This document shows positions 1 to 19,641 of a DNA stretch of 30,169 nt, in pieces. Origin of the DNA: a virus; IMG/VR virus record IMGVR_UViG_3300024261_000116, positions 1 to 30,169 of that record. One strand, 5' to 3'. Positions within the stretch are counted from its first letter, which is position 1; each line of letters opens with the position of its first letter. The notes under the pieces are model-generated. The model ran no database searches, was not told the origin of the DNA, and saw only the letters and a program-made list of their open reading frames with translations. The translations under genes and the position numbers were made by a program.

Positions 1-132
1 TTACTAACTATAACTGATAAGGAGTTAGAATTCTGGAAAAGAATAGATGTTTCTCCTACTTTTATGTTTGAGGAGTATGGAATAGATGATGAATTCTCAT
101 ATGACGAAAAGTCCCAAAGGTCGATAACTTAA
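1..132 (+). CDS. 3' end of unknown protein (5' truncated by window edge)
   Basis: An open frame runs from base 1 to a TAA at 130-132 and gives the last 43 residues of a protein. The fragment is acidic and aromatic (WKRIDVSPTFMFEEYGIDD) and reads like genuine protein rather than translated noise. No family is recognisable. It converges with the gp13-like gene on the opposite strand and the two 3' ends overlap by 36 nt. Such overlaps are unusual but also occur at the other convergent junctions here (1611-1636 and 20615-20622). The start lies outside the window, so length and function cannot be judged. It could be a spurious frame because it is short. Confidence 0.5.
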   Translation, partial: LLTITDKELEFWKRIDVSPTFMFEEYGIDDEFSYDEKSQRSIT

Positions 133-1239
133 TGATTTATTAAGACTTTCTGCCTCTATACCTTTATTTTCTAGTTGTTTAAGATTACTTAATCTTTCTA
201 ACCTTAAATCCAATTGTTCCAATAATTTAAGTTGTTCTTCTTTACCTTCACTTAATAAACTATCATAGTCCATAGTTAATTCAGCTTCAGGAACTTTTAA
301 TGCTCCACTGAATTTACCCCTTACCCTACCTAACGCTTCCTTAAATAAGGATGTTAAGTATCTCCTTACCCAAACCCTTGTTGGTTCGTTTAAATCAGAA
401 TAACGTAATTTAGAAAGTGGTACTTCATTTGGTAATTTTATAATGTCAGGATTATCTATTAAACATTGATCCCTATCGTCTCCAGAATCGTAGTAGTAAT
501 ACCATACTTTAGTACCTGCCAAACCTATTTGACTACCTACTAAACCACCTCCAGCAAAAGATAATCTACTACCAGGTATTGGCATAAGGTGTAACAATCT
601 AGTCCCATTTGGTCCCGCAGTAACTTTATAAGTTAATTCACTTCTTAATAATTTCGATTTTAAACTAAAGTCAGATGCTCTAAGTAATACATCGAAAGCT
701 GGTGCAACATAGAATCCACCATTACCTAATCCACCACCTTGTCCCCAACCAGCGAAAGGAACTTGTCCGAATCCACCACCGAATCCGTAATCTCCAAATC
801 CCGCAAATGAATACAATGCGTGATCTGTAGAGTTAGGTGTTATCCACATAATTTCATTAATTTCCCTACCAGCTGGAACTTGATACACTTGTTGATTAGC
901 AACAACAGTTACGTAATCTTTTTTCATTTCCCAAGGTCCTCTGGTTTGTAACCCAACTTGTTTAGAATAGGCGTAAGCAAATCTAGACTCAAAGTCTAAT
1001 GACCTAGTAGTTAAAGCGAATGCAATATCTGTATTATTTACATCATTACCCAATAATGAAGACCATTGATTTTCTATTAACCAATCTTGTACTCTTTGAG
1101 CGTAATCTTCTATAGAAGTTTCTAACAATGAACACATTTGGTCCCAATCTAATTCAATTTTTCTAATAGGGGCACCCAACCTATGTTTGATCATAGTGAA
1201 TAATTCTTCTTTTATTTGGTCATTTAGTGGTGCGGGCAT
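97..1239 (-). CDS. Neck protein, T4 gp13-like (putative)
   Basis: This 380-residue protein would be a virion neck (head-completion) component that closes the filled head and receives the tail. I base the call on pattern resemblance to T4-like gp13. The N-terminal helical segment (about residues 20-60, RLGAPIRKIELDWDQMC) resembles the 'LG.P...VEL...Q' opening of gp13 homologues. The C-terminal segment (about 285-355, RRYLTSLFKEALGRVRGKFSG) followed by a long charged helix matches the gp13 ending. Residues about 142-180 form an insertion made almost entirely of Gly, Phe, Tyr and Ala, which is not part of the usual family pattern. The gene is divergent from the 1280 gene and is separated by the helicase cluster from the gp14- and gp15-like genes that would normally sit beside it. 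Another head-tail connector protein is the main alternative. Confidence 0.6.
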   Translation of the reverse strand: MPAPLNDQIKEELFTMIKHRLGAPIRKIELDWDQMCSLLETSIEDYAQRVQDWLIENQWSSLLGNDVNNTDIAFALTTRSLDFESRFAYAYSKQVGLQTRGPWEMKKDYVTVVANQQVYQVPAGREINEIMWITPNSTDHALYSFAGFGDYGFGGGFGQVPFAGWGQGGGLGNGGFYVAPAFDVLLRASDFSLKSKLLRSELTYKVTAGPNGTRLLHLMPIPGSRLSFAGGGLVGSQIGLAGTKVWYYYYDSGDDRDQCLIDNPDIIKLPNEVPLSKLRYSDLNEPTRVWVRRYLTSLFKEALGRVRGKFSGALKVPEAELTMDYDSLLSEGKEEQLKLLEQLDLRLERLSNLKQLENKGIEAESLNKSLSYRPLGLFVI

Positions 1240-1253
1240 AATTGATGTGTTTA

Positions 1254-1279
1254 TTAATAAATATTGCGATATTTATTAA
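1254..1279. promoter_or_regulatory. Divergent promoter region: inverted pair of ATATTTATTAA
   Basis: ATATTTATTAA at 1269-1279 reads toward the plus gene that starts at 1280. Its exact reverse complement at 1254-1264 reads toward the minus gene that starts at 1239. The arms are perfect, 11 bp each, with TGCG between them. The same motif precedes many other genes in the window, always in the sense direction, so I infer two back-to-back phage promoters. The plus copy abuts the ATG, so its transcript would be leaderless or begin near the second Met codon at 1283. Confidence 0.5.
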
Positions 1280-1636
1280 ATGATGAAAAATGTAATAAGA
1301 AAAATATTAAAAGAGGAAAGTGATTTAGATCAGAATGGTAATGATATCGCGGTTGGTTTGTCTCATAAGGCAATGAATCATTTAACTGATGCTCTTAGAG
1401 CAATAGAGTCAGCGTTACAATACGCAGACGATGAAGAGTTAATAGATGGGTTAGAAAGTATTAGATCATCACTACTTAGCGGTGCTGGTAGACAAGAAGG
1501 GTTTGCATCGGAACACGATACAGAATATGATAATATCATAAATGTGTTAGGTGACTTAATTGCTGACAATAGTCAAGATAACTACAACTTTAATCTGAAT
1601 GGTCCGGGACCTAAAGCACCTGAAGGTGAGTTTTAA
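1280..1636 (+). CDS. Small acidic protein with N-terminal targeting-like tag
   Basis: This is a 118-residue protein of unknown family. It starts with a short basic amphipathic segment (MMKNVIRKILKEES) that resembles the tag of the genes at 25295-27080 and ends in L-K-E. The rest is acidic and helical (about residues 28-70 and 80-98), with a disordered tail rich in Asn, Gly and Pro (NGPGPKAPEGEF). Two Met codons are adjacent (1280 and 1283); either could be used. The 3' end overlaps the convergent glutaredoxin gene by 26 nt. If the tag is a capsid-targeting signal, this would be an internal head or scaffold-associated protein, but that is inference. Confidence 0.7.
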   Translation: MMKNVIRKILKEESDLDQNGNDIAVGLSHKAMNHLTDALRAIESALQYADDEELIDGLESIRSSLLSGAGRQEGFASEHDTEYDNIINVLGDLIADNSQDNYNFNLNGPGPKAPEGEF

Positions 1637-1868
1637 TTTGCACCACTGCCTCATCGATAGTGTTAAATGACTTATCAGGTAAAAAAGCTGTTTTATCAAT
1701 TAATACTGCTGGTAGTAAATCGTTCTTAACTTTTTTAGAAAATGATTTATATAGTTTTTCATTTTCATCTACATCGATTTCTACAAAATCAATTTTATTC
1801 TCGGTTAATTTATTTTTAAGTTTGTCGCAGTGTGGACAACCTTTCATAGAAAATACTTTAATTTCCAT
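1611..1868 (-). CDS. Glutaredoxin
   Basis: This 85-residue protein has the size and motifs of a phage glutaredoxin. It has a beta strand MEIKVFSM, the dithiol active site CPHC at residues 11-14, the strand DFVEIDVDEN, and the cis-proline loop LPAVLI. T4-type phages use such proteins to reduce ribonucleotide reductase for dNTP supply, and that is the likely role in the host cytoplasm. Its start overlaps the last 11 nt of the helicase gene, so the two are probably co-transcribed and translationally coupled. Its end overlaps the convergent 1280 gene by 26 nt. The usual Gly-Gly of the glutathione-binding site is not evident near the C-terminus, so the protein may be closer to thioredoxin-like NrdH-type redoxins. 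Confidence 0.87.
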   Translation of the reverse strand: MEIKVFSMKGCPHCDKLKNKLTENKIDFVEIDVDENEKLYKSFSKKVKNDLLPAVLIDKTAFLPDKSFNTIDEAVVQIKTHLQVL

Positions 1869-4779
1869 AGTCTATTTTTTTAAAAAATTCTGTTATTATA
1901 TCGGTTTCACCCATTATTGTTCCTATTACTTTTTTCTTTTCATTTAATATATTCCACACTAAAGTGTCAATAGTATCATCTATTAACATATAATAAATAT
2001 TAACAGTTTCCTTTTGCCCAATTCTATATGCTCTATCTTCAGCTTGTTCGTGTGTTCCAGGTACCCAATCTAAAGAATTCATAATTACAATTTCAGCTTT
2101 AGTTAGAGTTAATCCCACCCCAGCAGCTTTAATTTGTCCAACAAAAACCATACAACTATCATCTTCTTGAAACCTATCTACCGCATGTTGTTTTTTAGCG
2201 TCAGACATTCCTCCCCTAACACAAACACATTTATCACCGAAATGGTTAATAAAAGAATCCATTTCATCATTAAAGTTACAAAATATAATAGTTTTTTTAT
2301 TTGATTCTAAAGCTTCTTCTGTTTTTTCTATAGTATAAGGAACAGTTTCCATAGCGATAAATGTCCTTAAAAGAGTCATCTCAACTAGATCTTTAGCTGG
2401 GTTACCTTTTTTACCATCCAACTTACGTTGTTCCATATATTCATTCCAAACGTTTTTATATCCATCTACATTTTCTAATTCTAAATAAACTGGTGTTATT
2501 AATTTTTCAGGTAAATCTAAAACGTGTTCTTTTTTTCTTCTTAAAATAGTTCTTTTTGTTTTTGAAGATAATTCTTCTAGGTTAGAAGCACCATTGGTTA
2601 CCCATATAAACTTACCCCCTTTTTTAAATCTCATACCTTCACAATAGGTTTTGGCGTAATGAACCCAATTATTTGTAACTGGTGAGTCTATTATAGATAA
2701 TAAATTAAAATAATCCATTGGTCTATTAGCAATAGGTGTTCCTGTTAGTAACCACACTCTCTCTGTTTTAAATCTTTTGGATATATCTTTTAATATTTTA
2801 CCTCTAATACTTTTATGGTTTTTCACATAATGAGCTTCATCTAAAATTATTAAATCAGGGTTAAATTCTACAATCTCCCTTCTTAATTCCCAATCTTCAT
2901 ATTTTTTACCCTTTTCTTCTATAGTGTGGAAATTCTTTAATATATCGTAATTAATAATTGTAAATCTATCAGGATCCCAATGTTTTCCTTTAATGATTGA
3001 GACATCTTCACAAAAATTTTCTATCTCCCTCATCCAATTTATCTTTAATGATGATGGACAGACAACTAAAATTCTTTCGGCATCGATTTCCAACGCAGCT
3101 ACTATTGATTGATATGTGTTATGTGTGACTATCCCATGTTCTGTTACATATAGATGGTCTTCAGCACCAACTTGAATACAAACAGATTCGCCTTGTTTTT
3201 CTAATTTTATATCTTTAATATATCTACCAACTTTATATTTCTTTGGTTGGAGGTACTCACCAGACTTTCTTTTAAGTCTGAATGGGTTAATATCGTTTGA
3301 AAATTTAATATTCAATCTATAAACTCTTTTACCTTCTTTTTTCTCCCCTTTATAATGGTATGTTGGTATTCTACTTTTTTTTCTAACAATACCACCAAGA
3401 CTATGGACAATTTCAGATACGTCATCTGCAAGTTGTTCAGATACTGTAGAGTATTCGGTACCCGTAAAGTTACCCTTCTTACTTTTCATACAGTGACCAT
3501 CAGTATCCATAAGACCTTGTAAGATAGATACCCTATCTTCTATACTCGAATACTTATAAATGTCAGGAATAAACTTAGTGTGAGACCTTGTTTGGTTTAA
3601 ATTTAATTCTTTAAGTGATTCACCTAATTTAATGTTACAACTCCGAACATTTCTATGTGGTTTACATTCAGTTATTAATTGACCTTTAAATACCTCTTCA
3701 AAATCATCTTTATGTATATCAACTTTTACTGAACTATTTTTAATGTGACCATCACCCAAACAAACACCTAACAAATAAGGTTCAATAGGTAACACACTAT
3801 CATCACTAAACTCTATAGGTTTTACTATTGGTATTTGCCACTTATTTTGACCATTAGATGTTTTATAGTAGGTTTTAAATTTATACCCCCTCTTTTCATT
3901 CCACCCCTTACCTTTTACATTTAAATTTAATTCAGTATCTAACATTTGCTCGACACTAATCGTGTGGTATTTATTTTCTCTATTTTTACTATTATCACCA
4001 CTATTACAACTACTAACAGTGAACAAATGTTCTTTACTAACTAAAACTGAATAACCATCATTAAAGGTTACTCTATATAAATCTTTGACTCCTTGTGGGT
4101 AAACAGCTTCAACAATTACTGGTTTACCATCGGAACCGATAACATAATCACCATTTTTTAATGTTCCTATTTTTTGTCTACCTTTAGGTGTGAATACTTG
4201 ATTATCAACGAATTCACATTTCCCGATCCCCATATCGTCAGCTAAAATACACTTTTTATTCTTCAATAAAAATTCAATACCCTCTTCTTGATGTTTAAAC
4301 GCTCTCCACCCTCTTTTATCTATTTTTTGGTATTTCTCATAGTCAACCTCCACTTCAATCTCTTCATAATGTATGTCAGATAGTAATTGTGTTTTTGGTA
4401 TCCATATAAGTTTTACGTCTTTTTGGTTTTTATATAACTTACATATAATATGAATGGCTTTATCAGACTCCGCTAATAAAGTTTCTAACAATATTTTTTT
4501 AGGTGGGTTTTTTAATTTATGTTCTTCTTGTAGTTGTTCTGAAAAATAGTTGGTTAGTTCAATAACCTTGTCCATTTTTTTTGGTTCGACAGAATAATAA
4601 TTTTTTACGTATTTTGATTGACTATTGGTTAGAAAATATTTTTTTTCAGATATCATTTTTTTCTTCATATATGTTATATAAGGGTTTTTACCCTCATAAG
4701 TCATGAGCATAGATTCTGAATCGAGATTATTAATATCTTTAATATCTAACATTATTACAATAATAGACATTTTTTTCAT
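1858..4779 (-). CDS. SNF2-family DNA helicase/translocase with intein
   Basis: This is a 973-residue precursor; the mature helicase would be about 606 residues after removal of residues 188-554. The SF2/SNF2 motifs are in order: Walker A DDMGIGK-T (split by the intein), DEAH box in LIILDEAHYVKN, motif III LLTGTPIANRP, a strand KKTIIFCNFNDEMDSF, and motif VI QAEDRAYRIGQ. The overall form resembles SMARCAL1/HepA-like ATPases that remodel or anneal DNA, so a role in phage DNA replication, recombination or repair is likely. The N-terminal 150 residues are lysine-rich and unassigned. Start codons at 4779, 4770 and 4752 are all possible (MKKMSIIVIMLDI); I kept the longest. The gene is divergent from the gp14-like gene with only 28 nt between them and runs into glutaredoxin. 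Confidence 0.92.
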   Translation of the reverse strand: MKKMSIIVIMLDIKDINNLDSESMLMTYEGKNPYITYMKKKMISEKKYFLTNSQSKYVKNYYSVEPKKMDKVIELTNYFSEQLQEEHKLKNPPKKILLETLLAESDKAIHIICKLYKNQKDVKLIWIPKTQLLSDIHYEEIEVEVDYEKYQKIDKRGWRAFKHQEEGIEFLLKNKKCILADDMGIGKCEFVDNQVFTPKGRQKIGTLKNGDYVIGSDGKPVIVEAVYPQGVKDLYRVTFNDGYSVLVSKEHLFTVSSCNSGDNSKNRENKYHTISVEQMLDTELNLNVKGKGWNEKRGYKFKTYYKTSNGQNKWQIPIVKPIEFSDDSVLPIEPYLLGVCLGDGHIKNSSVKVDIHKDDFEEVFKGQLITECKPHRNVRSCNIKLGESLKELNLNQTRSHTKFIPDIYKYSSIEDRVSILQGLMDTDGHCMKSKKGNFTGTEYSTVSEQLADDVSEIVHSLGGIVRKKSRIPTYHYKGEKKEGKRVYRLNIKFSNDINPFRLKRKSGEYLQPKKYKVGRYIKDIKLEKQGESVCIQVGAEDHLYVTEHGIVTHNTYQSIVAALEIDAERILVVCPSSLKINWMREIENFCEDVSIIKGKHWDPDRFTIINYDILKNFHTIEEKGKKYEDWELRREIVEFNPDLIILDEAHYVKNHKSIRGKILKDISKRFKTERVWLLTGTPIANRPMDYFNLLSIIDSPVTNNWVHYAKTYCEGMRFKKGGKFIWVTNGASNLEELSSKTKRTILRRKKEHVLDLPEKLITPVYLELENVDGYKNVWNEYMEQRKLDGKKGNPAKDLVEMTLLRTFIAMETVPYTIEKTEEALESNKKTIIFCNFNDEMDSFINHFGDKCVCVRGGMSDAKKQHAVDRFQEDDSCMVFVGQIKAAGVGLTLTKAEIVIMNSLDWVPGTHEQAEDRAYRIGQKETVNIYYMLIDDTIDTLVWNILNEKKKVIGTIMGETDIITEFFKKIDYGN
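3118..4218 (-). other. Intein with LAGLIDADG homing endonuclease, in the helicase Walker A motif
   Basis: The insertion covers residues 188-554 (367 aa). It begins with Cys188 directly after the Walker A Lys and ends with His553-Asn554, followed by Thr555, the natural Walker A Thr. Splicing blocks are visible: block A CEFVDNQVFTPKG, a block B region ending VSKEHLFTV, and block F DHLYVTEHGIVTHN. Two LAGLIDADG helices, YLLGVCLGDGHI (335-346) and ILQGLMDTDGHC (419-430), keep their acidic residues, so the endonuclease looks intact. With Cys1, the penultimate His, the terminal Asn and Thr at +1, it should be splicing-competent. The helicase cannot bind ATP until the intein leaves, since it splits GIGK from T. 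Confidence 0.95.
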
Positions 4780-4787
4780 AAAAAGAA

Positions 4788-4798
4788 ATATTTATCTA
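4788..4798 (+). promoter_or_regulatory. ATATTTAT motif before the gp14-like gene
   Basis: ATATTTATCTA ends 9 nt before the ATG at 4808, in the same orientation as the copies before other plus-strand units. It is a candidate phage promoter element; the evidence is recurrence and position only. Confidence 0.4.
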
Positions 4799-4807
4799 TA
4801 AAAGAAT

Positions 4808-5329
4808 ATGCAATCTAATAAAAAAGTACCAATAGAAAGACTTAATAAGTTTTTTTCTCAAGATGATTTTGACTTGGAAGTTGGTTTTGGAAGGGAATGG
4901 TTAGAAGGTGATATAAATATAAAGGTAATACTTTATCAAGTTGACAGGGTAGAAACTACTAATGATGATATTTATGGTGAAGCGGCTAAAGAAGACATAA
5001 TGTTTAAACCACCTATAGAAATTCCCGTTAGTTTTAATATGGTAGCGCCAGCTAATAAAAGTTACAATACTGATGGGTCTATGAGATATTTAGAGTATGG
5101 TACGGTAACACTTGGTGTGTATCAAGAACAATTAAATGATTTAGGGGTAGATATAAATTATGGGGATTATATTGGATACCCAGAAAATGAAACAAATATT
5201 AAATATTTTACTGTAAGTAATAATGGTAAGATATTTAGTGATAATTCTCATACTATTGGTGGGTATAAGGGTCTTTATAGAACAATAACATGTGTACCAA
5301 CTGATTTAGACGAATTTAACGGAATGTAA
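4808..5329 (+). CDS. Neck protein, T4 gp14-like (putative)
   Basis: This 173-residue protein probably belongs to the neck, joining the head-completion ring to the tail. The features that suggest T4 gp14 are a strand-rich core with VILYQVDRVETTNDDIYGE, then KFPP-like residues, and LGVDINYGDYIGYPENE followed by YFTVSNNG. These parallel the 'YYVPRE...IFGED' and 'GDLIYFP...FEI' segments of T4 gp14. It is shorter than T4 gp14 (about 256 residues) and appears to lack the C-terminal extension. The next gene starts 1 nt after its stop and is gp15-like, reproducing the T4 order 14-15. No Shine-Dalgarno sequence is visible; the start follows an A-rich stretch. Assignment is by pattern, not by search. 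Confidence 0.6.
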   Translation: MQSNKKVPIERLNKFFSQDDFDLEVGFGREWLEGDINIKVILYQVDRVETTNDDIYGEAAKEDIMFKPPIEIPVSFNMVAPANKSYNTDGSMRYLEYGTVTLGVYQEQLNDLGVDINYGDYIGYPENETNIKYFTVSNNGKIFSDNSHTIGGYKGLYRTITCVPTDLDEFNGM

Positions 5330-5330
5330 T

Positions 5331-6362
5331 ATGGGTTTACCAAAGAATTATAGAAAATACTTAAATATTTCACCACATAAACAAGGTTTAGAACAAAGAC
5401 AAAGTATTCTAGATGATATCGCTAATCAAGGTACCTATTTACCTAAAGGTATTCTTCATGAAGATATGGATGGGGAGATGATCAATTATGTGGATAACGA
5501 TATCGATGTATCTTTAGCTGGTGAAAAGGTACCAGTTATATTTTTAAGTATACAAAGATGGGCTGAATTTACCAAAACTTGGCAATATTCCGACATCAAT
5601 AAAAATATAAAATTACCTTTTATTACAATAGTTAGAAAACCTGACCCACAAGTCGGTACTAATTACGCTGGAAGTTTTAATATACCTGGTAGACCAACAT
5701 TCACCTATATGAAGGTACCCACTTGGGATGGTAACATAAAGGGTTATGATATGTATAAAATACCACAACCCATTTCAGTAGATATAACATATGAAGTTAG
5801 GTTGTTTTGTAATAGAATGAGAGACCTAAATAAAATGAATAGAAAAATATTGACTTCATTTTCTGCGGGTGAAAAATATATTAGAGTTAATGGTCACCCT
5901 ATACCGCTATTATTAGATAGTATAGGAGATGAAAGTGTAATAACTAACTTAGACGAAAGAAAATATTACGTTCAGTTGTATACTATTAAAATGTTGGGAT
6001 ATTTATTAGATGAAGACGATTTTGTTGTAACACCCGCTGTTAATAGAGCCATTAATTTTTACGAAATTAGTGAGAATTTATATAGGGCTTCGTATCAAGT
6101 TGAGGCGGATGACGAAAAGAAAACAATTTGTATTAACGTAATATTCCAAAGAGGGGTAAATAACGTTACGATACCTATTGAGATTGGTGCGACTTATAAT
6201 AGTATAACAGCTACAAATTCGGATTCAGAGGTTATAAAAGTGAATGGGTTGGAGGTGACGACCCCATTCAGTGTAGTGAATGGAGATTCATTATATATAA
6301 AGGTAAATAAATCTGATGCGAATATTTCATCAGAAGTTGAAATAAGTGGAACAATATCATGA
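5331..6362 (+). CDS. Tail completion / sheath terminator protein, T4 gp15-like (putative)
   Basis: This 343-residue protein likely forms the ring capping the tail tube and sheath at the head-proximal end. Residues about 65-110 (VPVIFLSIQRWAEFTKTW then LPFITIVRKPDP) and about 145-235 (PQPISVDITYEVRLFCNRM, then a strand-rich stretch ending in GYLLDEDDF) follow the T4 gp15 pattern, including the 'P.PI...YE...F.R..DD.' segment. T4 gp15 is about 272 residues; the extra length here is a C-terminal Ig-like beta domain from about residue 255 (YQVEADDEKKTICINVIFQ onward). Its stop overlaps the start of the giant fibre gene by ATGA, so the two should be translationally coupled. Confidence 0.62.
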   Translation: MGLPKNYRKYLNISPHKQGLEQRQSILDDIANQGTYLPKGILHEDMDGEMINYVDNDIDVSLAGEKVPVIFLSIQRWAEFTKTWQYSDINKNIKLPFITIVRKPDPQVGTNYAGSFNIPGRPTFTYMKVPTWDGNIKGYDMYKIPQPISVDITYEVRLFCNRMRDLNKMNRKILTSFSAGEKYIRVNGHPIPLLLDSIGDESVITNLDERKYYVQLYTIKMLGYLLDEDDFVVTPAVNRAINFYEISENLYRASYQVEADDEKKTICINVIFQRGVNNVTIPIEIGATYNSITATNSDSEVIKVNGLEVTTPFSVVNGDSLYIKVNKSDANISSEVEISGTIS

Positions 6363-9300
6363 GTAGTTGTGATGAATCAAACATAAAAAAGAATTATATT
6401 GTACAAGCACCTACGGATTTTGATATCCTTAGTGCGTGTACTGGGTTTTATACAAATAATATATATAACTGTACTGGTGATACTTTAACTTTACACAGTA
6501 CAACAGTTTCTGCAAACACAGTCAACGCCTCTGTTTATTTAAGTGGTGGGACAAATTTATTAGATATATTTGGGTCTTTAGATAATTACACTACTGGCGC
6601 AACGTTAGTAGGTACCGAAGTTGTTTTTGATAGAACTAATCTATTAAGTGCGTATACTTTAAATTTATCCACTTTAGTCGATAATAACACGTTTGTCACT
6701 GGATTTACTTATGATGACGCTAATACATTCACAATAAGTGATAATAGTGGGTCAACATTTAATGCAACATTTAATACCGTTACTGGTTTAACCGTTACTG
6801 GTGGGTTAAGCGCAACAACATTATCAGCTTGTACTGGTATCTACACATCTAATTTATATGGTTGTTCACCAATAACTGTACACGATAGTATACAAAGTAG
6901 TAGTTCATCAGCTACAGGATTAACTTCATTTGCCTTCGGAACCGGCGCACAAGCATATGGTGATTATTCTCACGCTGAAGGTAAAAGTACAACCGCAATT
7001 GGAGAAAATTCACATGCTGAAGGTAATCTTACAACTGCAAGTGGTAAGAATTCACATGCTGAAGGTCTGAATACAACTGCGGGAGGGTTTTATTCACACG
7101 CTGAAGGATCAGGTTCAGAGACAATTGGGACTGCTTCTCATGCTGAAGGTCTGAATACAACCGCAAGTAATCAGGGTTCTCATGCTGAAGGTGGTTCTAC
7201 AACCGCAAGTGGTTTATATTCTCACGCTGAGGGTAAAGATACGACAGCAAGTGGACATTATTCTCACGCTGGCGGTAGAGGAATCAATAGTAGTCAAATT
7301 GTCGCAAGTGGTGAGACATCATTTGTACACTTTCGGGTTGCTACTGGTGGTGGTTTTGGTCCTAATCATGGCGCTTACGGTGATTATTCAGCAATTCTTG
7401 GTGGTAACGACCATAATATAGGGTATGGTAGTACAAGTTCAGGTATATTCGCTGGTTCTGATAACATAATAAATGACAATGTATTAAGAAGTGTTATATT
7501 AGGTGGAAGTAATATCACAGGAACAACAGACGATACCGTTTATGTACCTAACTTAAATGTTAATCTCATTGATAATGACGATTCTTTAACTCAAATACTC
7601 TCCAGAGATAGTTCTGATGGAACAATAAAATATAGAGATGTAAGTTCTATTATCGGAGCAGCTTCAGCAGATACATTTGTTACAGGATTTACTTATGATG
7701 GTGTCAACACATTTACAATAAGTGATAATAGTGGTTCGACATTTAACACTAGTATAAATGTATTGTCAGCAACAACAATATCAGCAACAACTTATTTCGG
7801 AGATGGTTCTAATTTAAGTGGTATAGATAATTTCTATGTTAGCGGTGGTTCATATAATGATGGGACAACATCAATTGACTTTAGTGGTAATAGTGTTGAG
7901 ACTACATTTAGTGTGTCATTAAGTGGTATCAGTTCTAATATCGATATTTATAATACTTACTTCGTCTCACCAACAGGTGACGACTCAACTGCGGTTAGAG
8001 GTGATTTACACAATCCGTTTAAAACAATAACCGCAGCTAGAAATAAAGTGGTTGCTGAATTATCTGCATCAACAGTAACTGGTGATACGCTTATTTATGT
8101 ATATCCTGGTAACTACACCGACCAAGAAGTTCAATATGAGAATGGTAATTTCTATTTTACACCGAACACAGTTGTTACACTAGTTCAAAATACAACTGCT
8201 AATAGAACAGACGTATTTCGATTGGGGACATCTTTAGTGAATACATCTAATATCTATTCAGCCAATACCTGTAACATTTACGGTCAAGCTAAATTCATTG
8301 TTTCGGCTAGTACCGATAATGATGTAGGTGGTGGTGTAATTCAAATGCTTGGTAACTCTAAATCACATTTTGAGTGTGATTCAGCTTATGGTAGTAAAGG
8401 GACATTATTCTCTACATTTGGGAATTCAGAATTAAAATTAAAGGCTAATGAATTAGAATTAGAAGCTAACGATTACGTATTAACCTTTAGAGAATCTTCT
8501 AAAACATTTATTGATGTTAATAGAATTAAAGGTGGTACTTTGGGTTGGGCTGTTTATTATTTCGGGTTCAACGGACAATCAATATTAAATGTAGATGAAT
8601 TAGTCGGTGGTAAAACATTTCAACCATTAGGGTTTCGAAGTGTTAGTGATGGTGCGGAAATAGTATTAAATATTAATAAATTATCTCACGAACCAAATAC
8701 ATTACCTAATACCCAATGGTTAATTAATAATACATCACAAAGTGGTGGTAAGATTACCTATAATGGTAATATGAATGGAGTCAATGGTGGTATTATATAT
8801 GGTACTACCGCTAGTGGTGGTGAATTTAATTATAATGGTGATATATTAGTTGGTAACATCGCAATACTTCAAGGTTTCCCAGGTGTGAGTAGTACAGACC
8901 ATAAGTTTAATTTTAACGGTACAATCTCTGTTAGCGGAAACTCAACAACCCCAACTTTATTTAATGGTGGTACAATAACTCTTAATGGTTCTTTATTAGA
9001 TTTAGGTGGTACTGGAACCAATGGTATTAGTACAACTAGTTCTACTGATTTAAGGGTTGATAACTTTAGGGTTGAAGGTGTTACTACAAACTCGATTATC
9101 GGTTCTGGTAATGTTGATATATTCAACTCGCTTTATATAGATAAGCCAATCGGAGGTACTGTTACAACAACAGGACAATACATATTTACAGGTACAACAT
9201 ATGATGGTGATTTAAATATATATAATACACCAACAAACGATAATTTATTAACAGAAATATTAGGTAGAAATTCGTCTACTGGTGATGTCGAATACAGAGA

Positions 9301-12235
9301 CGTTCAATCAATAATAAGTGCAGCTACATCACAAGATACATTTGTCACTGGTTACACATATGACGATGCTAATACATTTACAATAAGTGATAATAGTGGT
9401 TCTACATTTAGTGCGACTATTAACAACGTTACAGGTTTAACAGTTAATGGTGACTTATCCGCAACAACAATATCGGCTTGTACTGGTATATATACATCTA
9501 ATTTATATGGTTGTTCACCTATTACGGTAAATGACAATTTAATATTATTAAGTGGTTTAACTTTTCCTTCGATAACTCAAGATAATTCATTAACACAAAT
9601 ACTTTCCAGAGATAGTTCTGATGGAACAATAAAGTATAGAGATGTTCAATCAATAATAAGCGCAGCTACATCACAAGATACATTTGTTACTGGTTTTACT
9701 TATGACAATATCAATACATTTACAATAAGTGATAATAGTGGTTCGACATTTAACGCTAGTATAAATGTATTATCCGCAACAACAATATCGGCAACAACAT
9801 TTTACGGAGATGGGTCTCAGTTATCTGGAATAACACATACAACAGACACATTTATAAGTGGAGGGACATATATTGACGGTGGTATTGGATACAATTCCAA
9901 TTCAATCGATTTAGATAATAATACTGGGGGGACTGTTACCATAACCAGTGTAAGGGATACCTACTTAACTGGTCAAACATTTAATGAAAGTAATTATGAA
10001 ATAACATCAACACTTAATGATGGCACTTCTTTAATAAGTGATTTATCTATCCTCTCAACCGATATGGTTGTTACTGGTGGTACTTATGACATTAATAATG
10101 GTGTAGTAACCTTCACTAATAACTCTGGGGGCACATTCAACGTTTCAGGGTTTACTTCTGGAATGACTGATAGTTTTACTGTAGCGGCCAATATTAGTGC
10201 TAGTACAGAAAGTATTACCTTTGACAATAATTTAACAGGTTCTAATTTTTATAATGTTAGTCTTACACCATTATTAAGTGGTAAAACTAATAATAGTACT
10301 TTTAACACATATACCTCTGATACCCAAACGATATTAGATAGTAAAGTTGAAGATGGTGCTAATGTCGGTAGTGGTGCTGGCGAGATATTCTCTGGTAAAT
10401 CTGGAACAACACTTAACTTTAGAACACTTTCGGGTGGTTCTAACACAACATTAACAACTGTTGGTGATGTTGTTAAAATAGATGTGGCGGTACCCTCTGG
10501 AGATAACTTCTTCTCAACGGCTGGTACCGTTACACAATCAGCCACAACTGGTGATACGGCAATAACCTTACAAATAGTTGGGACTAGTGGGTTTTCACCC
10601 TACTCAATAACAGGTATAACAGATACTTTTGTAAATGATTTCACATTTAGTTCGAATACGTTTACAATAACCCAAAATGATGGTAGTAGTTTCGATAGTA
10701 GTCTTGAAACGATTGAATTAGGTAATATATTAAGTGCGGTTACCTTTAATATAGGTACCTCTGGAAGTATATCAGCGACAACATTTAACGGTGATACGTT
10801 TAGTGGGGGTACTTTCTATGGTGATGGTACTAATTTAAGTGGTATAGATAATTTCTATGTCACAGGTGGTACAGTAACTGGTGAAACAACAATTGTACTT
10901 AGTAGGACTGATAATGTTAATGTGTTAGTTACTGGGGTTACAGGTAGTGATTTATTCAATACATACACTGGTAATACTGAGACAGTTTTACTTACTAAAG
11001 TTGATGGTGGTAATAATGTTGGTGGGGCAACTGAAATATTTAGAGATAAAACAGGCACAACACTTAACTTTAGAACACTTTCGGGTGGAACTAATACAAC
11101 GGTTACAACTATTGGTGATGTTAATAGGGTTGACGTATCATTACCGACTGATTTAAACACTTTTGTCACTGGGTTTACATATAACGATAACAATACATTT
11201 ACAATAAACGATAATGTAGGTTCAGCGTTTACCGCAACAATTAATCAAGTAAGTGGTTTAACCGTAAATGGAACCTTATCCGCAACAACTTTAGATGGTG
11301 GTATAATATTAAGTGGTGGGACTAATTTAACTACAATAATAGAAAGCTTGGATACATACGTTACTGGGGGTACGGTTTCAATATCGGCAACTACCAATAC
11401 AAATTCAGCAACAATAGGGTTATCATATAAAAATTCTGAAGGTGTTCCCCATACATTACCTTTTGACGATACGTTTACAACTGGTGCAACATATGATAAC
11501 GGAACTGCGTTAGTAACTTTTGACAAAAATGATGGTACTAATTATTTTTTAAATTTATCCACAATAGATGTTAACGATACGTTTGTTAGTGGTGGAACAT
11601 ACAATGACTCAACAGACATTATTACATTTACAAATACAAGTGGTGGTACTTTTAATGTTACAGGAATTACAGACACATTTGTAACAGGAGGAACTTATAG
11701 TAGTGGAACGACATCATTAGATTTTAGTGGTAACACTGGGTTTGTCCCATTTAGTGTAAATGTTTCTGAATTAATAGATGATACAAACACATTTGTCACA
11801 GGGTTCACTTATAACGATACTAACACATTTACAATTAGTAATAATAACGGAACTAACTATTCTGCTTCGATCGATATAATGTCTGGGTTGACAGTTAATG
11901 GTGATATTTTATGGGGTGACCCAACCGCACTATCACTTAACACAACGGTTAAAAAATCTATAAATTCGGGATTATCAGAAATTTATTCAATACCCGTAAG
12001 TGCTTACACTGGTGGGTTCTTCGAATATACTGTAACTGGGTCTGGTGCTAGAGCTGGTTCTATTATGTCAATATTTAGTGGGACATCTATTGATTTTAAT
12101 GAGACAACAACAAACGATATAGGGGACACAAGTGGAATTACTTTTGATATGAATATATCTGGTGGTACTGCTAACTTAACTGTTTCAGCGACAACAAATA
12201 GTTGGGAAATAAAAACAATTGTAAGAAGTATATGA
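6359..12235 (+). CDS. Giant tail fibre / adhesin, 1958 aa
   Basis: This is a modular virion fibre with Ser, Thr, Gly and Asn dominating and few charged residues. From the N-terminus it has Cys-containing fibre repeats (LSACTGxYTSNLYGC), eight 14-residue SHAEG units (residues 204-306, like the YadA head), a single-stranded beta-helix region resembling pectate lyases (about 535-925, opening FVSPTGDDSTAVRGDLHNPF), and then many copies of TFVTGFTYDDANTFTISDNS and ISATTFYGDGSNLSGI modules up to about residue 1850. A distinct non-repetitive C-terminal domain (last about 100 residues) is a candidate receptor-binding tip. No membrane anchor or signal peptide is present, which fits a virion fibre and not a cell adhesin. 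It starts within the stop of the gp15-like gene and ends within the start of the BspA-like gene. Confidence 0.88.
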   Translation: MSSCDESNIKKNYIVQAPTDFDILSACTGFYTNNIYNCTGDTLTLHSTTVSANTVNASVYLSGGTNLLDIFGSLDNYTTGATLVGTEVVFDRTNLLSAYTLNLSTLVDNNTFVTGFTYDDANTFTISDNSGSTFNATFNTVTGLTVTGGLSATTLSACTGIYTSNLYGCSPITVHDSIQSSSSSATGLTSFAFGTGAQAYGDYSHAEGKSTTAIGENSHAEGNLTTASGKNSHAEGLNTTAGGFYSHAEGSGSETIGTASHAEGLNTTASNQGSHAEGGSTTASGLYSHAEGKDTTASGHYSHAGGRGINSSQIVASGETSFVHFRVATGGGFGPNHGAYGDYSAILGGNDHNIGYGSTSSGIFAGSDNIINDNVLRSVILGGSNITGTTDDTVYVPNLNVNLIDNDDSLTQILSRDSSDGTIKYRDVSSIIGAASADTFVTGFTYDGVNTFTISDNSGSTFNTSINVLSATTISATTYFGDGSNLSGIDNFYVSGGSYNDGTTSIDFSGNSVETTFSVSLSGISSNIDIYNTYFVSPTGDDSTAVRGDLHNPFKTITAARNKVVAELSASTVTGDTLIYVYPGNYTDQEVQYENGNFYFTPNTVVTLVQNTTANRTDVFRLGTSLVNTSNIYSANTCNIYGQAKFIVSASTDNDVGGGVIQMLGNSKSHFECDSAYGSKGTLFSTFGNSELKLKANELELEANDYVLTFRESSKTFIDVNRIKGGTLGWAVYYFGFNGQSILNVDELVGGKTFQPLGFRSVSDGAEIVLNINKLSHEPNTLPNTQWLINNTSQSGGKITYNGNMNGVNGGIIYGTTASGGEFNYNGDILVGNIAILQGFPGVSSTDHKFNFNGTISVSGNSTTPTLFNGGTITLNGSLLDLGGTGTNGISTTSSTDLRVDNFRVEGVTTNSIIGSGNVDIFNSLYIDKPIGGTVTTTGQYIFTGTTYDGDLNIYNTPTNDNLLTEILGRNSSTGDVEYRDVQSIISAATSQDTFVTGYTYDDANTFTISDNSGSTFSATINNVTGLTVNGDLSATTISACTGIYTSNLYGCSPITVNDNLILLSGLTFPSITQDNSLTQILSRDSSDGTIKYRDVQSIISAATSQDTFVTGFTYDNINTFTISDNSGSTFNASINVLSATTISATTFYGDGSQLSGITHTTDTFISGGTYIDGGIGYNSNSIDLDNNTGGTVTITSVRDTYLTGQTFNESNYEITSTLNDGTSLISDLSILSTDMVVTGGTYDINNGVVTFTNNSGGTFNVSGFTSGMTDSFTVAANISASTESITFDNNLTGSNFYNVSLTPLLSGKTNNSTFNTYTSDTQTILDSKVEDGANVGSGAGEIFSGKSGTTLNFRTLSGGSNTTLTTVGDVVKIDVAVPSGDNFFSTAGTVTQSATTGDTAITLQIVGTSGFSPYSITGITDTFVNDFTFSSNTFTITQNDGSSFDSSLETIELGNILSAVTFNIGTSGSISATTFNGDTFSGGTFYGDGTNLSGIDNFYVTGGTVTGETTIVLSRTDNVNVLVTGVTGSDLFNTYTGNTETVLLTKVDGGNNVGGATEIFRDKTGTTLNFRTLSGGTNTTVTTIGDVNRVDVSLPTDLNTFVTGFTYNDNNTFTINDNVGSAFTATINQVSGLTVNGTLSATTLDGGIILSGGTNLTTIIESLDTYVTGGTVSISATTNTNSATIGLSYKNSEGVPHTLPFDDTFTTGATYDNGTALVTFDKNDGTNYFLNLSTIDVNDTFVSGGTYNDSTDIITFTNTSGGTFNVTGITDTFVTGGTYSSGTTSLDFSGNTGFVPFSVNVSELIDDTNTFVTGFTYNDTNTFTISNNNGTNYSASIDIMSGLTVNGDILWGDPTALSLNTTVKKSINSGLSEIYSIPVSAYTGGFFEYTVTGSGARAGSIMSIFSGTSIDFNETTTNDIGDTSGITFDMNISGGTANLTVSATTNSWEIKTIVRSI
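6689..6880 (+). repeat. 192-bp module repeated at 9338-9529 within the same fibre gene
   Basis: Both copies encode TFVTGxTYDDANTFTISDNS through SACTGIYTSNLYGCSPITV with the same length and many identical bases. A second long pair in the same gene begins near 7580 and near 9581 (SLTQILSRDSSDGTIKYRDV to the GDGS module). Single modules also recur in the 1174-aa fibre at about 13738 and 14688. Confidence 0.85.
6968..7276 (+). repeat. Eight 42-bp repeats encoding SHAEG units
   Basis: Seven SHAEG units and a final SHAGG recur every 14 codons exactly (Ser codons at 6968, 7010 and so on to 7262). Between them are variants of TTASGxY or TTAxGxN. This is the head-repeat pattern of trimeric autotransporter adhesins, embedded here in a phage fibre. 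Confidence 0.9.
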
Positions 12236-13374
12236 TAATAACACATAACGGAACCATATTAACGAATGATGGGGTTGTTATAACTAAGTCGGATATTGAG
12301 CCGGTAGACCCAGATTTTAAGTTTACTATTGACACTACTTTTATTGACGCAACTACAATTACTGATAATCATTCTTTTCAGCTTAAATTACAGAATGGGT
12401 CAACTGATGTTGTAATTGAATGGGGTGATGGAAATTCAGATGTTGTAACATCTAACATTGACCCAGTTTTAGTACATGATTATGGGATTGGTAATGAAGG
12501 TGTTTATCAAATTGTAATTAAGGGCTCCTTTGAAGGTATTGGTAATCCACCTCCACCTGGTGGTGGTGCCAATAATACAGATGGGGGTAAGTGGTTGTCT
12601 CTTGATAATTGGGGTACAAACTCCTTTAATAATATGAAACAATCATTTGAAAAGTGTGCAAATATGGTTGGTAATTATACCGATACACCAAACACTTCTT
12701 CATGTACCGATATGAGTTTTATGTTTAGGAATTGTTCTAATTTTAATAGTCCAGTTAATTTTGACACATCTTCATGTACTAATTTGGAAGGTGCTTTTTT
12801 AGATTGTACATTATTTAATCAACCAATCAATTGGAATACACAAAATGTAGTTAGTTTTTTCAGATGTTTTTACGATTGTTCAAATTTTAATAGTCCTGTA
12901 ACTTTAAATGGGTTATTAAATGCTGATAATGTAGCGTCAATGTTTGACAGATGTACTAATTTTAATTCACTGGTAACCCTTTCTACTCCATCAAATATTA
13001 CCAATATGGGGGCTATGTTTCAAAGTACCTCATTTAATCAAGATGTCAGTGATTGGGATGTGAGTAATGTTACTAATATGCGATTTATGTTTGCTACTTC
13101 TCCATTTGACCAAGACCTAAGTAACTGGGATATTTCAGCTATGCTTGTTCCTGGAGCTGGAGGTAGTGCTAATAGGATGTTTTATGGGACATGTTCATTT
13201 TCAACTGCAAACTATGATTTACTATTAGTAGGTTGGAACGCTTATGTAGTACCAGGAACAACTGGTATACAATTTGATGCATGTAATACAAAATATTCAG
13301 CAGGTGCTCCAGCAACAGCAAGAGCGAATATGATTAGTTTTGAGTGGATTATTGGGGACGGTGGTCCGGTATAA
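12232..13374 (+). CDS. BspA-like surface repeat protein (DUF285), putative fibre-associated adhesin
   Basis: This is a 380-residue protein. Its N-terminal beta domain (about 20-105) contains WGDGNSDVV and HDYGIGNEGVYQIVIKG, like a PKD-type sandwich. It is followed by DUF285/BspA leucine-rich-like repeats with the pattern TDMSFMFRNCSNFN, FNQPINWNTQNV, NMGAMFQSTSFNQDVSDWDV and NMRFMFATSPFDQDLSNWDI (about 140-310), and a C-terminal cap containing WIIGDG. These repeats are common in surface proteins of Bacteroidota and gut or marine bacteria. I chose the ATG at 12232 because it overlaps the fibre stop as ATGA, whereas an in-frame ATG 30 nt upstream lies inside the fibre gene. Position between two fibres suggests a virion adhesin. 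Transfer from a bacterial surface protein is plausible. Confidence 0.83.
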   Translation: MIITHNGTILTNDGVVITKSDIEPVDPDFKFTIDTTFIDATTITDNHSFQLKLQNGSTDVVIEWGDGNSDVVTSNIDPVLVHDYGIGNEGVYQIVIKGSFEGIGNPPPPGGGANNTDGGKWLSLDNWGTNSFNNMKQSFEKCANMVGNYTDTPNTSSCTDMSFMFRNCSNFNSPVNFDTSSCTNLEGAFLDCTLFNQPINWNTQNVVSFFRCFYDCSNFNSPVTLNGLLNADNVASMFDRCTNFNSLVTLSTPSNITNMGAMFQSTSFNQDVSDWDVSNVTNMRFMFATSPFDQDLSNWDISAMLVPGAGGSANRMFYGTCSFSTANYDLLLVGWNAYVVPGTTGIQFDACNTKYSAGAPATARANMISFEWIIGDGGPV

Positions 13375-13418
13375 AAAAAACAAATACACCATAATATTAT
13401 GATTTTAATTAAACCTAC

Positions 13419-13429
13419 ATATTTATAAT
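13419..13429 (+). promoter_or_regulatory. ATATTTAT motif before the 1174-aa fibre gene
   Basis: ATATTTATAAT lies 42 nt upstream of the ATG at 13472, in the only real gap (97 nt) of the fibre block. This suggests a new transcription unit starts here. No clear hairpin terminator is seen between 13375 and 13418. Confidence 0.4.
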
Positions 13430-13471
13430 TAAATAACATTTAAACTACTGGATAGGGAAAGTAATTAAAGA

Positions 13472-16400
13472 ATGGCACACGAATTTGTAATAAAGAATGG
13501 ATTTATCTCCAAGGGGGATTCCATTGTAAGTGGTTCACTATCTGGTGAAACATTAAACCTTACCACAACACCATCAAACGATAATTCACAAACACAAGTA
13601 TTAGTTAGAAATAATACCACTGGTTTAGTAGAATATAGAGACGCATCAACATTTAGTGGTGCTTCCGATACAAATACTTTTGTAACAGGATTCACATACA
13701 ACGAAAACAACACATTTACAATAAATGATAATGTAGGTTCAGCGTTTACCGCAACAATCAATCAAGTAAGTGGATTGACGGTTAATGGTACCTTATCCGC
13801 AACAACATTAGATGGAAATACAATACTTAGTGGGGGTACTAATCTTTTAACTATAATAGAAAGTTTGGATACGTATGTTACTGGTGGTACGTATAGTGAT
13901 ATAACTGATGTAATTACATTTACAAATACAAATGGTGTCCCATTTAATGTTACTGGTGTTACAGATACCTTTGTAACAGGATTTACATGGAACCCCTCAA
14001 CGTTTGATTTAACAATAGAACAAAATAATGGTATTACAGATGAAACAGTTAATTTATCTATTTTATCTTCAGATGTTTATGTCCTTAGTGGGGTATATAG
14101 CGCATCAACTGGTGTTGTAACATATACAAATTCCACAGGTGGGACTTTTCAAGTTAGTGGTTTCACTACAGGAATGACAGATTCATACACAGTTAGCGCA
14201 AATCTTAATAGTGAATCGATTGAGTTTGTAAATAATTTACAAACTCCAAGCCCATTTTATAGTGTAAGTTTAACACCTTTATTAAGTGGTAAAACAAATA
14301 ACACAACATTTAACGCATATACCTCTGATACACAAACTACATTAAATACTAAAATTAGTGGGGCAACAAATTTATCAACAACAGGTATATTCGGACAAAA
14401 AAATGGACAAAATTTAGAATTTAAAGGTATTACATCCACTGGTGGTACAGTAACTATTACAAATGATAGTACTAGTCTTAATTTAGATGTTACAATACCA
14501 GTTGATACTAATACATTCGTTACTGGTGGTACTTATAACCCATCCACCGTTAATTTAGATTTTAGTGGTAATAGTGGATTTTCAGCGTTTACTGTAGATG
14601 TGTCAGCTCTTAAAGATGATACAAATACTTTTGTTACTGGATTTACTTATAACGATGCCAATACATTTACAATAAACGATAACGCTGGTTCAGCGTTTAC
14701 CGCAACAATCAATCAAGTAAGTGGGTTGACGGTTAATGGTATATTGTCAGCCACAACAATTAGTGGTGGTACTCTTTATGGTGATGGGTCAAATTTAACT
14801 GGTATATTAACACAGATAAACACAGGAAATGTTTTATGGGTAGATAATATATTCGGTAATGACGGTACCGCATTAGTTGATAGACAAGATAAACCTTGGT
14901 CTAGTATTGCTACGGCTCTTAGTAACGCAACCACAAATGATACAATTATGGTTAGACCTGGTGATTATGTTGAACCACCATTTACCTTAATTCCAGGTAC
15001 TTCATTAATTAGTCAAGGTGGACCAAAGGTTACATTTATAAGTGGTTCTACAACAACGGGAAATTTTATAACAGTATCGGGTAGTTCTTATATGGAAGGG
15101 TTTACACTCTATACCCCAACCGATGATTCGGCAGCGTTATATTTCAATGACCCAACAGGTGATATTGTAACATCATTTCACAATGTACACTTTAAAGGTT
15201 CTAGCGTTTCTGGTGGTACTGGTGTTACATTAGGGAAAGGACTTGTGATGGACAGTGGATTAGGTAGTGGACCACCTCCAGCTAAAATTATTTATACTGA
15301 ATTAAGATATGGTGGTGGACATTTAGACACTTTAGTTGAGGTTAATAAAGGTATTTTCACTTTGGATGGTATACACGTTCCAGGTGGACAAACAGTGAAT
15401 AAGGGCATTCAAGCAAATGGTGGTAGATTACAGTTAACTAATGTTAATATAGGAAACGGTAATTGTAATACAGCAATAAGTGTTAGTGGAACCGCATCAA
15501 ACACACCAGTTGTGGTTGGGTTCGGACTTAATTTATTTAACGTACCGACTGGTTTAGAAATAACGTCTAATTACTATGAGATTGAGTTACAAAACGGTAG
15601 GTTTGAAGCTGGTGTAGAAAATTTATTAATATCTAGTGGTTTAACTGGTGAGTTTGGTAAGTTGAACATGGTTAATTTCATAATGGATTCTGAAAAAATA
15701 GATGAACCTTATACTTGGGCAGATTCAGAACACACAATTTTTTATAGTGACATAGGTAATTCACAAAATGTGTCACCAATAATTAGAACACATGGTAACC
15801 TTGAAATAGGTCAACCAAATAGGGGTAGCTCGTTATCGGTAGGTCGTGGTACTGAATACCAAAAAGGTATGCACTTACACAGTAGCGGTACAACTGGAAC
15901 CACTAATTTAATATTATCTGCTAAAACTAAAGGCGTTATTTGGTCATTTGAATCTTTAACTGCTGGTGAAGAACTATATATTGGGAGTAGCGAAAGATAC
16001 CCTAATGGGGACTATGTTAACTGGTGTGGTTTTGAATTAACTTATACTGGGTCAACAGGTGGAACATATACAATTGAATATTATTCTGGTGGAACTTGGG
16101 TAGACATTAAATATCAAGTTACAAACCAAGAGTTTGGTTATAATTACTCAAATAATTTATTTCATAGAACTGTTGGAACAATAGAGGATGTTAGAATAGC
16201 CGTTCTTAAAAATAATGGTTGGTCGGAGTCAACAATATTTGGGCATACCGCTAAATGGGTTAGAATTACAATGGTAACCCCACCAGCATCATTACCACAA
16301 TTTGACCTATTGTGGTTGGATGGTTCTCACACAGAAATAAATCAAAATGGTATCTCAACATATTATGGTAGTGCACTATATAGAGATACTTTATTATCTG

Positions 16401-16996
16401 CTGGTAATGTATTTGGAGAATCTGGTGGTGTTCTTAGTGCTTCAGTCCCAGTTGGGACTGGTGCACCAGCCCCAACTGGGTGGGACCACTCTATTAAGAA
16501 TTCTAGATTAAATGGTAACGGAGACGCTATATATCTACAATCAGCATTGCCTAGAGGGTTATGTAGTGCGTACCCACTTAGGGTTAAAATATATTTTGGC
16601 CTTGACCCAGGTGATGGTGTTGCGATAACAAGCTCACCAGAATTAATAACTTCTTTTCTGGCTAAAGGAGCATCTGGAACCCTTGTCGCTGACCCATCTG
16701 GTGGTATAACTCCATTACCAAGAACTATAGAAAACACAACGACATTTACTTCTTCACCTGGCTCTTTTGTTACAAGTGACTTGGTAGAGGTAGGTAAACC
16801 AACTAACACATATGCTGATAAAGCCATGAGTATTCAAGATATTGAGTTCGATATTTCTGAGTCCTATGAAGGTGATGGTTTTTTATTGAGAATTGAATTA
16901 AATGACGATGGTACACCCAATCAAGATGTTATAATATTTGCTGTTGAAGTGGATGTGGTTAAATGGGCATTAGGTGAAAGAGTACAAGTAGAATAA
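13472..16996 (+). CDS. Second large tail fibre, 1174 aa, with beta-helix domain
   Basis: The N-terminal residues (MAHEFVIKNGFISKGDSIVS) resemble fibre or spike attachment segments. Next come fibre modules of the same type as in the 1958-aa protein (TFVTGFTYNENNTFTINDN, TVNGTLSATTLDG, YGDGSNLTGI), several nearly identical at nucleotide level. A pectate-lyase-like beta-helix follows from about residue 453 (VLWVDNIFGNDGTALVDRQD) to about 780. The C-terminal third has a beta-sandwich-like stretch (GGTYTIEYYSGGTWVDIKYQ) and a distinct end domain rich in prolines and aromatics. There is no catalytic motif I can assign to the beta-helix, so depolymerase activity is only a possibility. The gene is followed 12 nt later by the jelly-roll gene. 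Confidence 0.87.
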   Translation: MAHEFVIKNGFISKGDSIVSGSLSGETLNLTTTPSNDNSQTQVLVRNNTTGLVEYRDASTFSGASDTNTFVTGFTYNENNTFTINDNVGSAFTATINQVSGLTVNGTLSATTLDGNTILSGGTNLLTIIESLDTYVTGGTYSDITDVITFTNTNGVPFNVTGVTDTFVTGFTWNPSTFDLTIEQNNGITDETVNLSILSSDVYVLSGVYSASTGVVTYTNSTGGTFQVSGFTTGMTDSYTVSANLNSESIEFVNNLQTPSPFYSVSLTPLLSGKTNNTTFNAYTSDTQTTLNTKISGATNLSTTGIFGQKNGQNLEFKGITSTGGTVTITNDSTSLNLDVTIPVDTNTFVTGGTYNPSTVNLDFSGNSGFSAFTVDVSALKDDTNTFVTGFTYNDANTFTINDNAGSAFTATINQVSGLTVNGILSATTISGGTLYGDGSNLTGILTQINTGNVLWVDNIFGNDGTALVDRQDKPWSSIATALSNATTNDTIMVRPGDYVEPPFTLIPGTSLISQGGPKVTFISGSTTTGNFITVSGSSYMEGFTLYTPTDDSAALYFNDPTGDIVTSFHNVHFKGSSVSGGTGVTLGKGLVMDSGLGSGPPPAKIIYTELRYGGGHLDTLVEVNKGIFTLDGIHVPGGQTVNKGIQANGGRLQLTNVNIGNGNCNTAISVSGTASNTPVVVGFGLNLFNVPTGLEITSNYYEIELQNGRFEAGVENLLISSGLTGEFGKLNMVNFIMDSEKIDEPYTWADSEHTIFYSDIGNSQNVSPIIRTHGNLEIGQPNRGSSLSVGRGTEYQKGMHLHSSGTTGTTNLILSAKTKGVIWSFESLTAGEELYIGSSERYPNGDYVNWCGFELTYTGSTGGTYTIEYYSGGTWVDIKYQVTNQEFGYNYSNNLFHRTVGTIEDVRIAVLKNNGWSESTIFGHTAKWVRITMVTPPASLPQFDLLWLDGSHTEINQNGISTYYGSALYRDTLLSAGNVFGESGGVLSASVPVGTGAPAPTGWDHSIKNSRLNGNGDAIYLQSALPRGLCSAYPLRVKIYFGLDPGDGVAITSSPELITSFLAKGASGTLVADPSGGITPLPRTIENTTTFTSSPGSFVTSDLVEVGKPTNTYADKAMSIQDIEFDISESYEGDGFLLRIELNDDGTPNQDVIIFAVEVDVVKWALGERVQVE
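16447..16480. repeat. GC-rich 17-bp-arm inverted repeat inside the fibre gene
   Basis: The left arm is CCCAGTTGGGACTGGTG (16447-16463) and the right arm CACCAGCCCCAACTGGG (16464-16480). They pair at 16 of 17 positions with no spacer. The local GC content is far above the surrounding sequence. The stretch encodes VPVGTGAPAPTGW in the 1174-aa fibre. Confidence 0.9.
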
Positions 16997-17006
16997 TATT
17001 TATTAG
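16996..17006 (+). promoter_or_regulatory. ATATTTAT motif before the jelly-roll gene
   Basis: ATATTTATTAG ends 2 nt before the ATG at 17009 and overlaps the stop of the upstream fibre gene. Initiation from it would give a leaderless or nearly leaderless message. Confidence 0.35.
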
Positions 17007-17008
17007 AT

Positions 17009-18840: not shown

Positions 18841-18855
18841 AACAATAGAAAAGGT

Positions 18856-19590: not shown

Positions 19591-19641
19591 TCTTTATTTT
19601 TTTTAATGGTTAATTATTATATTTAAACGTAAAAATTTTAT

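Follow-up and report, generated by a model that had tools for sequence, protein, structure and literature searches.

The window analysed here is a virus contig of 30,169 bases that includes a contractile tail module. On its minus strand it encodes a SNF2-family helicase whose Walker A loop is split by an inserted segment. This locus raises the question of what the segment is, whether the helicase could be released from it by protein splicing, and which residue would then attack first. An initial annotation had described a probably active, mobile intein with Cys1 as the nucleophile, and had proposed that its splicing may switch the helicase on, with a hint at redox control from a neighbouring glutaredoxin gene. 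Positions 1-20000 of the window had no close DNA match among 50,697 phage records.

A full-size intein between the Walker A lysine and threonine

The features of the locus are listed below, with conservation given for 56 distinct inteins inserted at the same site.

1611..1868, minus strand: glutaredoxin gene (CPHC), an 11-bp overlap with the helicase stop; a neighbour lying outside the intein
1858..4779, minus strand: SNF2-family helicase precursor ORF, 973 aa (phrog_62 DNA helicase, 5.9e-106)
4219..4779, minus strand: N-extein, 187 aa, ending in ILADDMGIGK; the joined exteins align with the intein-free alleles L081-L085
3118..4218, minus strand: intein, 367 aa, a Hint splicing domain with an inserted LAGLIDADG endonuclease
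4216..4218, minus strand: intein residue 1, Cys, variable among family members
4027..4029, minus strand: block B:10 His64, invariant (56/56)
4021..4023, minus strand: block B:12 Phe66 (Trp in 53/56)
3742..3774, minus strand: first LAGLIDADG motif, LLGVCLGDGHI, catalytic Asp156 kept
3496..3525, minus strand: second LAGLIDADG motif, ILQGLMDTDG, catalytic Asp240 kept
3178..3180, minus strand: block F:4 Cys347, invariant, the probable first nucleophile
3118..3126, minus strand: block G Thr365-His366-Asn367, invariant C-terminal splice motif
1858..3117, minus strand: C-extein, 419 aa, starting with Thr+1 of Walker A (TYQSIVAAL)

The intein occupies residues 188-554 of the precursor (1101 bp, from the TGT codon of Cys1 to the AAC codon of the last Asn) and separates GIGK from T in the Walker A loop. 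Its removal leaves a product of 606 aa, in which GIGK is followed directly by T. The flanks match Pfam SNF2-rel_dom (4.5e-27) and Helicase_C (7.4e-18), and they contain what is expected of a SNF2 helicase: an N-terminal ATPase domain with Walker A and B, and a Helicase_C domain with motif VI (EQAEDRAYRIGQ), which is not interrupted in the window. The segment itself has intein blocks A, B, F and G, the B:10 His, the penultimate His, the terminal Asn and Thr at +1. Moreover, its insert matches LAGLIDADG_3 of Pfam (1.2e-06) and contains two LAGLIDADG helices, each with its catalytic Asp (D156, D240), as in homing endonucleases. The junctions and both helices are thus as intact as the annotation had described them.

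The intein profile PF14890 had no match anywhere in the record, and TIGR01445 and TIGR01443 scored below their cut-offs (16.8 versus 24.5 and 13.1 versus 15.6, respectively). As the standard profiles miss the splicing domain or stay below cut-off, the evidence that goes beyond chance is comparative. It includes five viral contigs (L081-L085) with intein-free helicase alleles, 82-85% identical, in which the junction reads GLGKTYQS without interruption. These alleles, of the kind that the annotation had proposed to look for, join seamlessly across the insertion point, and the annotated coordinates of the intein proved exact. In the extein tree the window helicase clusters with four of them, L082-L085. 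The Lys/Thr point has been named the classic P-loop site of inteins (PMC5050341), in agreement with the preference for P-loops that had been noted for this one. TerL1-a and other mycobacteriophage 'classic' P-loop inteins use the same Walker A Lys/Thr point (PMC5050341), although the host protein of TerL1-a is a terminase and that of the window a SNF2 helicase. The window element is, in this respect, an ordinary mobile P-loop intein of an already known type.

We modelled the structure of the intein together with its flanking extein residues, positions -10 to +6, using 49 family sequences. The model is confident (mean pLDDT 86, pTM 0.87), and Foldseek paired it with PI-SceI and TliVMA at about 1e-16, with I-DmoI, and with the class 3 DnaB1 inteins 6bs8, 6riy and 6rix at about 1e-4 (rmsd 1.1-1.2 Å over about 68 columns). 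The predicted fold is the expected combination of Hint and LAGLIDADG domains, and is compatible with either splicing class.

Residues that bear on the splicing class

What defines a class 3 intein is the triplet Trp B:12, Cys F:4 and Thr G:5 (WCT); the first attack is made by Cys F:4, Cys1 is dispensable, and the residue at +1 is as a rule Ser or Thr (PMC3196547; PMC5222942). The window intein has Cys347 at F:4, Thr365 at G:5 and Thr at +1, and Phe66 in place of Trp at B:12. The experimentally studied class 3 inteins Dra Snf2, MP-Be DnaB and MP-Catera Gp206 (PMC3196547), together with Msm/Mch DnaB1, share with it Cys F:4, Thr G:5, His B:10, the HN end followed by Ser or Thr, and the Hint fold, and some of them are likewise inserted in SNF2 proteins or P-loops. 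They differ from it at B:12 and at residue 1, where the window has Cys. Additionally, the window intein retains a full LAGLIDADG domain, which the mini-inteins of solved structure lack.

To what extent these two deviations matter can be judged from the family. Relatives of the intein are encoded at 130 viral loci, the best 80 of which (L001-L080) are 54-75% identical. These metagenomic phage inteins share the host protein and the GK/T site of the window intein, but differ from it at residue 1, and most have Trp B:12. Among the 56 distinct same-site inteins, residue 1 is Ala in 18, Cys in 16, Phe in 7, Met in 5, Gly in 5, Leu in 3 and Ser in 2, so that 38 have no Cys, Ser or Thr there and the conservation characteristic of class 1 is lacking. 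All 56 keep Cys F:4, Thr G:5, both histidines (B:10 and penultimate) and the terminal Asn. Trp B:12 is replaced, by Phe, in the window, L002 and L006 only. The intein of L002, 73% identical to that of the window, combines Ala1 with an identical Phe-Cys-Thr set.

The intein tree, computed with both residue 1 and B:12 omitted, requires at least 19 changes of residue 1, including at least 8 switches between nucleophile and non-nucleophile. Position B:12 changed three times between Trp and Phe (Phe arose three times), and Cys F:4 did not change at all. The drift of residue 1 with an invariant block-F Cys and block-G Thr is a class 3 signature. The statement of the annotation that Cys1 is the nucleophile is thus probably wrong: from the residue pattern of the family, Cys347 is most likely the first attacker and Cys1 dispensable.

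More distant relatives fit the same pattern. A contig search with the single sequence gave no relative, whereas a search with the family alignment did, and the bacterial loci were selected by their endonuclease motif, independently of the splicing residues. The set of distant relatives comprised 10 phages (L089-L098) and 69 bacterial loci (n=79), mostly 27-39% identical. Another 11 distant loci, in which the automatic search for the C-terminus failed, were excluded; their ends show the Cys and, in all but L161, THN. Trp, Cys and Thr are present in 79 of 79 relatives, Cys1 in none and Ala1 in 66, the first residue being uncertain in a few loci such as L093 and L098. An automatic count placed the insertion at GK/T or GK/S in 74 of the 79. 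The exteins that we checked were SNF2 (L094, L099, L101, L105), RecG (L111), DnaB (L144), an AAA+ M41 protease (L100) and a UvrD-like helicase (L110). One class 3 lineage thus uses the Walker A Lys/Thr or Lys/Ser point in mutually unrelated ATPases. With an outside root, parsimony gave about five gains of Cys1, and in a tree without class 1 outgroup the window intein is nested among relatives with Ala1 and WCT.

Taken together, these patterns argue that the window intein probably splices by class 3 and not by class 1 chemistry. Cys347, positioned by His64 and Thr365, would attack the Lys-Cys1 bond, converting the N-extein into a thioester, and the N-extein would then pass to Thr+1 of the C-extein. 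Asn367 would cyclise with the help of His366 to free the intein, and the exteins would rejoin as GIGKT, restoring the ATP site. Cys1 would be a passenger, not needed as first nucleophile.

The opposite assignment, a class 1 intein in which the first thioester forms at Cys1 and Cys347, at the F:4 position usually held by Asp, has an assisting role only, is unlikely. It would account for Cys1, and Cys at F:4 is on record for some class 1 inteins (PMC3196547). The solved structure closest in sequence is also of class 1, namely gp41-1 (6qaz, and 6riz in its engineered WCT form; 1.5e-07 and 5.5e-08), which has Phe B:12 and a THN end, as does the window intein. However, F:4 is Asp in gp41-1 and Cys in the window, 38 of the 56 same-site inteins would be left without a nucleophile at residue 1, L002 with its Phe B:12 among them, and all 79 relatives extracted from the wider family are of class 3. 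Phe at B:12 is typical of class 1 inteins such as gp41-1. Trp B:12 is replaced in 6.1% of 1701 class 3 inteins, and the AceL NrdHF intein, with Met-Cys-Thr, was proven to splice by class 3 (PMC7891396), so Trp is usual but not obligatory, even if its change to Ala stops splicing in the class 3 inteins tested (PMC5222942). Cys at residue 1 does not suffice for a class 1 assignment. Tori and Perler reportedly found in 2011 that some inteins with Ser1 or Cys1 and WCT, Catera Gp206 included, splice by class 3. Pleione gp218 (L179), a possible counterpart of the latter, has Cys at its apparent start together with the WCT residues. If a survey defines class 3 by Cys at F:4 and the absence of an N-terminal Cys, as in PMC7891396, 16 of the 56 same-site inteins would escape it.

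It is also improbable, though conceivable, that the combination of Cys1, Phe B:12 and Cys F:4 makes the window intein a natural intermediate of classes 3 and 1, in which either cysteine could initiate. If it were so, the repeated gain of Cys1 in the phage family would offer class 3 inteins a way of returning towards class 1. The grafting of WCT and C1A onto the class 1 intein gp41-1 left almost no splicing (PMC7664689), so that one chemistry cannot simply be exchanged for the other. The close natural variants in this family (Ala1 or Cys1, Phe or Trp at B:12) make the relationship of the two classes directly testable, and the uncommon combination of Cys1 with Phe-Cys-Thr would be a useful test object.

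Selection, mobility and the proposed switch

Besides Phe66, the splicing domain of the window has one more unusual residue, Gly351 of block F, where 50 of the 56 inteins have Asp and L002 and L003 have Ala. Two such residues could be signs of a decaying intein that has lost splicing and left the helicase of this phage inactive, and a proven pseudogene, Arsp-FB24, is known among class 3 inteins (PMC3196547). We consider this very unlikely, as the alignment revealed no disabling change at any catalytic splicing position, the 973-aa frame is open, the extein motifs are conserved, and dN/dS of the splicing domain against the nearest relatives is 0.10-0.18, a rough value since dS is high. The endonuclease domain, compared in the same way and with the same reservation about dS, is also under purifying selection (0.14-0.27). 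In one clade of related inteins (L028, L033, L035, L038), the first LAGLIDADG Asp of block C is replaced by Asn or Gly (GNG/GGG) while all the splicing residues are kept, which fits the expected order of decay, endonuclease before splicing domain.

The identities of inteins and exteins correlate only partially (Spearman 0.60). The inteins of L067 and L070 are almost the same (dS 0.06-0.08) although their helicases lie far apart (dS 2.1), a pattern that indicates recent intein transfer. Conversely, L021 and L040 have near-identical helicases (dS 0.11) with differing inteins (dS 0.36-0.66), which points to replacement of the intein allele. Sporadic presence, discordant intein and extein trees and purifying selection on the endonuclease indicate that the intein is a mobile element, and with its residues intact the annotated label of a probably active one appears justified. 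The LAGLIDADG domain would cut intein-free helicase alleles and thereby spread the element.

That the helicase stays inactive until it is spliced, as annotated, can fairly be concluded from the insertion in Walker A, but the extension of this view to splicing as a switch found no support. A regulated on-switch, for instance a redox one acting through cysteines and glutaredoxin, would be compatible with either splicing class. The Walker A loop is indeed split in the precursor, the window intein has several cysteines, and on Msm DnaBi1, a P-loop intein of class 3, H2O2 has an inhibitory effect that is due to a disulfide between Cys48 and Cys118 (PMC6195587). Nevertheless, such a switch is highly improbable here: Cys1 is not conserved, the extein Cys at -11 is present in intein-free alleles too, and sporadic, replaceable inteins match a selfish element. 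The glutaredoxin gene does overlap the helicase gene, as had been annotated, but a glutaredoxin gene (CPxC frame) lies just downstream of the helicase in all five intein-free alleles as well. The neighbour therefore belongs to the helicase locus and not to the intein, and we dropped the proposed redox switch through glutaredoxin.

Further inteins and other genes of the window

Some of the ORFs of L001-L080 are far longer than that of the window. In L003 this is due to a second insert near motif VI, EQAEDR/CIFGG...VYDLSVED...VHN/CYRIGQ (slashes mark the junctions), a canonical class 1 intein, so that this helicase carries class 3 and class 1 inteins in one protein, whereas the window has only the one at the class 3 site. 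A second insert at motif VI is probably also present in L004, L008, L009, L018, L040, L042 and L044.

The tail sheath of the window (955 aa, 21070-23937, plus strand) has family matches only in about its C-terminal half, and its nearest relatives are the sheaths of Microcystis phage Mel-JY01 and of a 484-kb uncultured phage. One of the nearest sheaths belongs to the huge uncultured phage LR756508.1 (L094), in which a class 3 intein also interrupts a SNF2 helicase, at GVGK/T. A 540-aa ORF (27855-29477, minus strand) matches homing/HNH endonuclease families (phrog_3339, 2.7e-136), and its C-terminal part has a weak Mom-like match. A repetitive protein of 1958 aa (6359-12235, plus strand) with a YadA-head repeat match is probably part of the virion, as a fibre or an adhesin-like protein.
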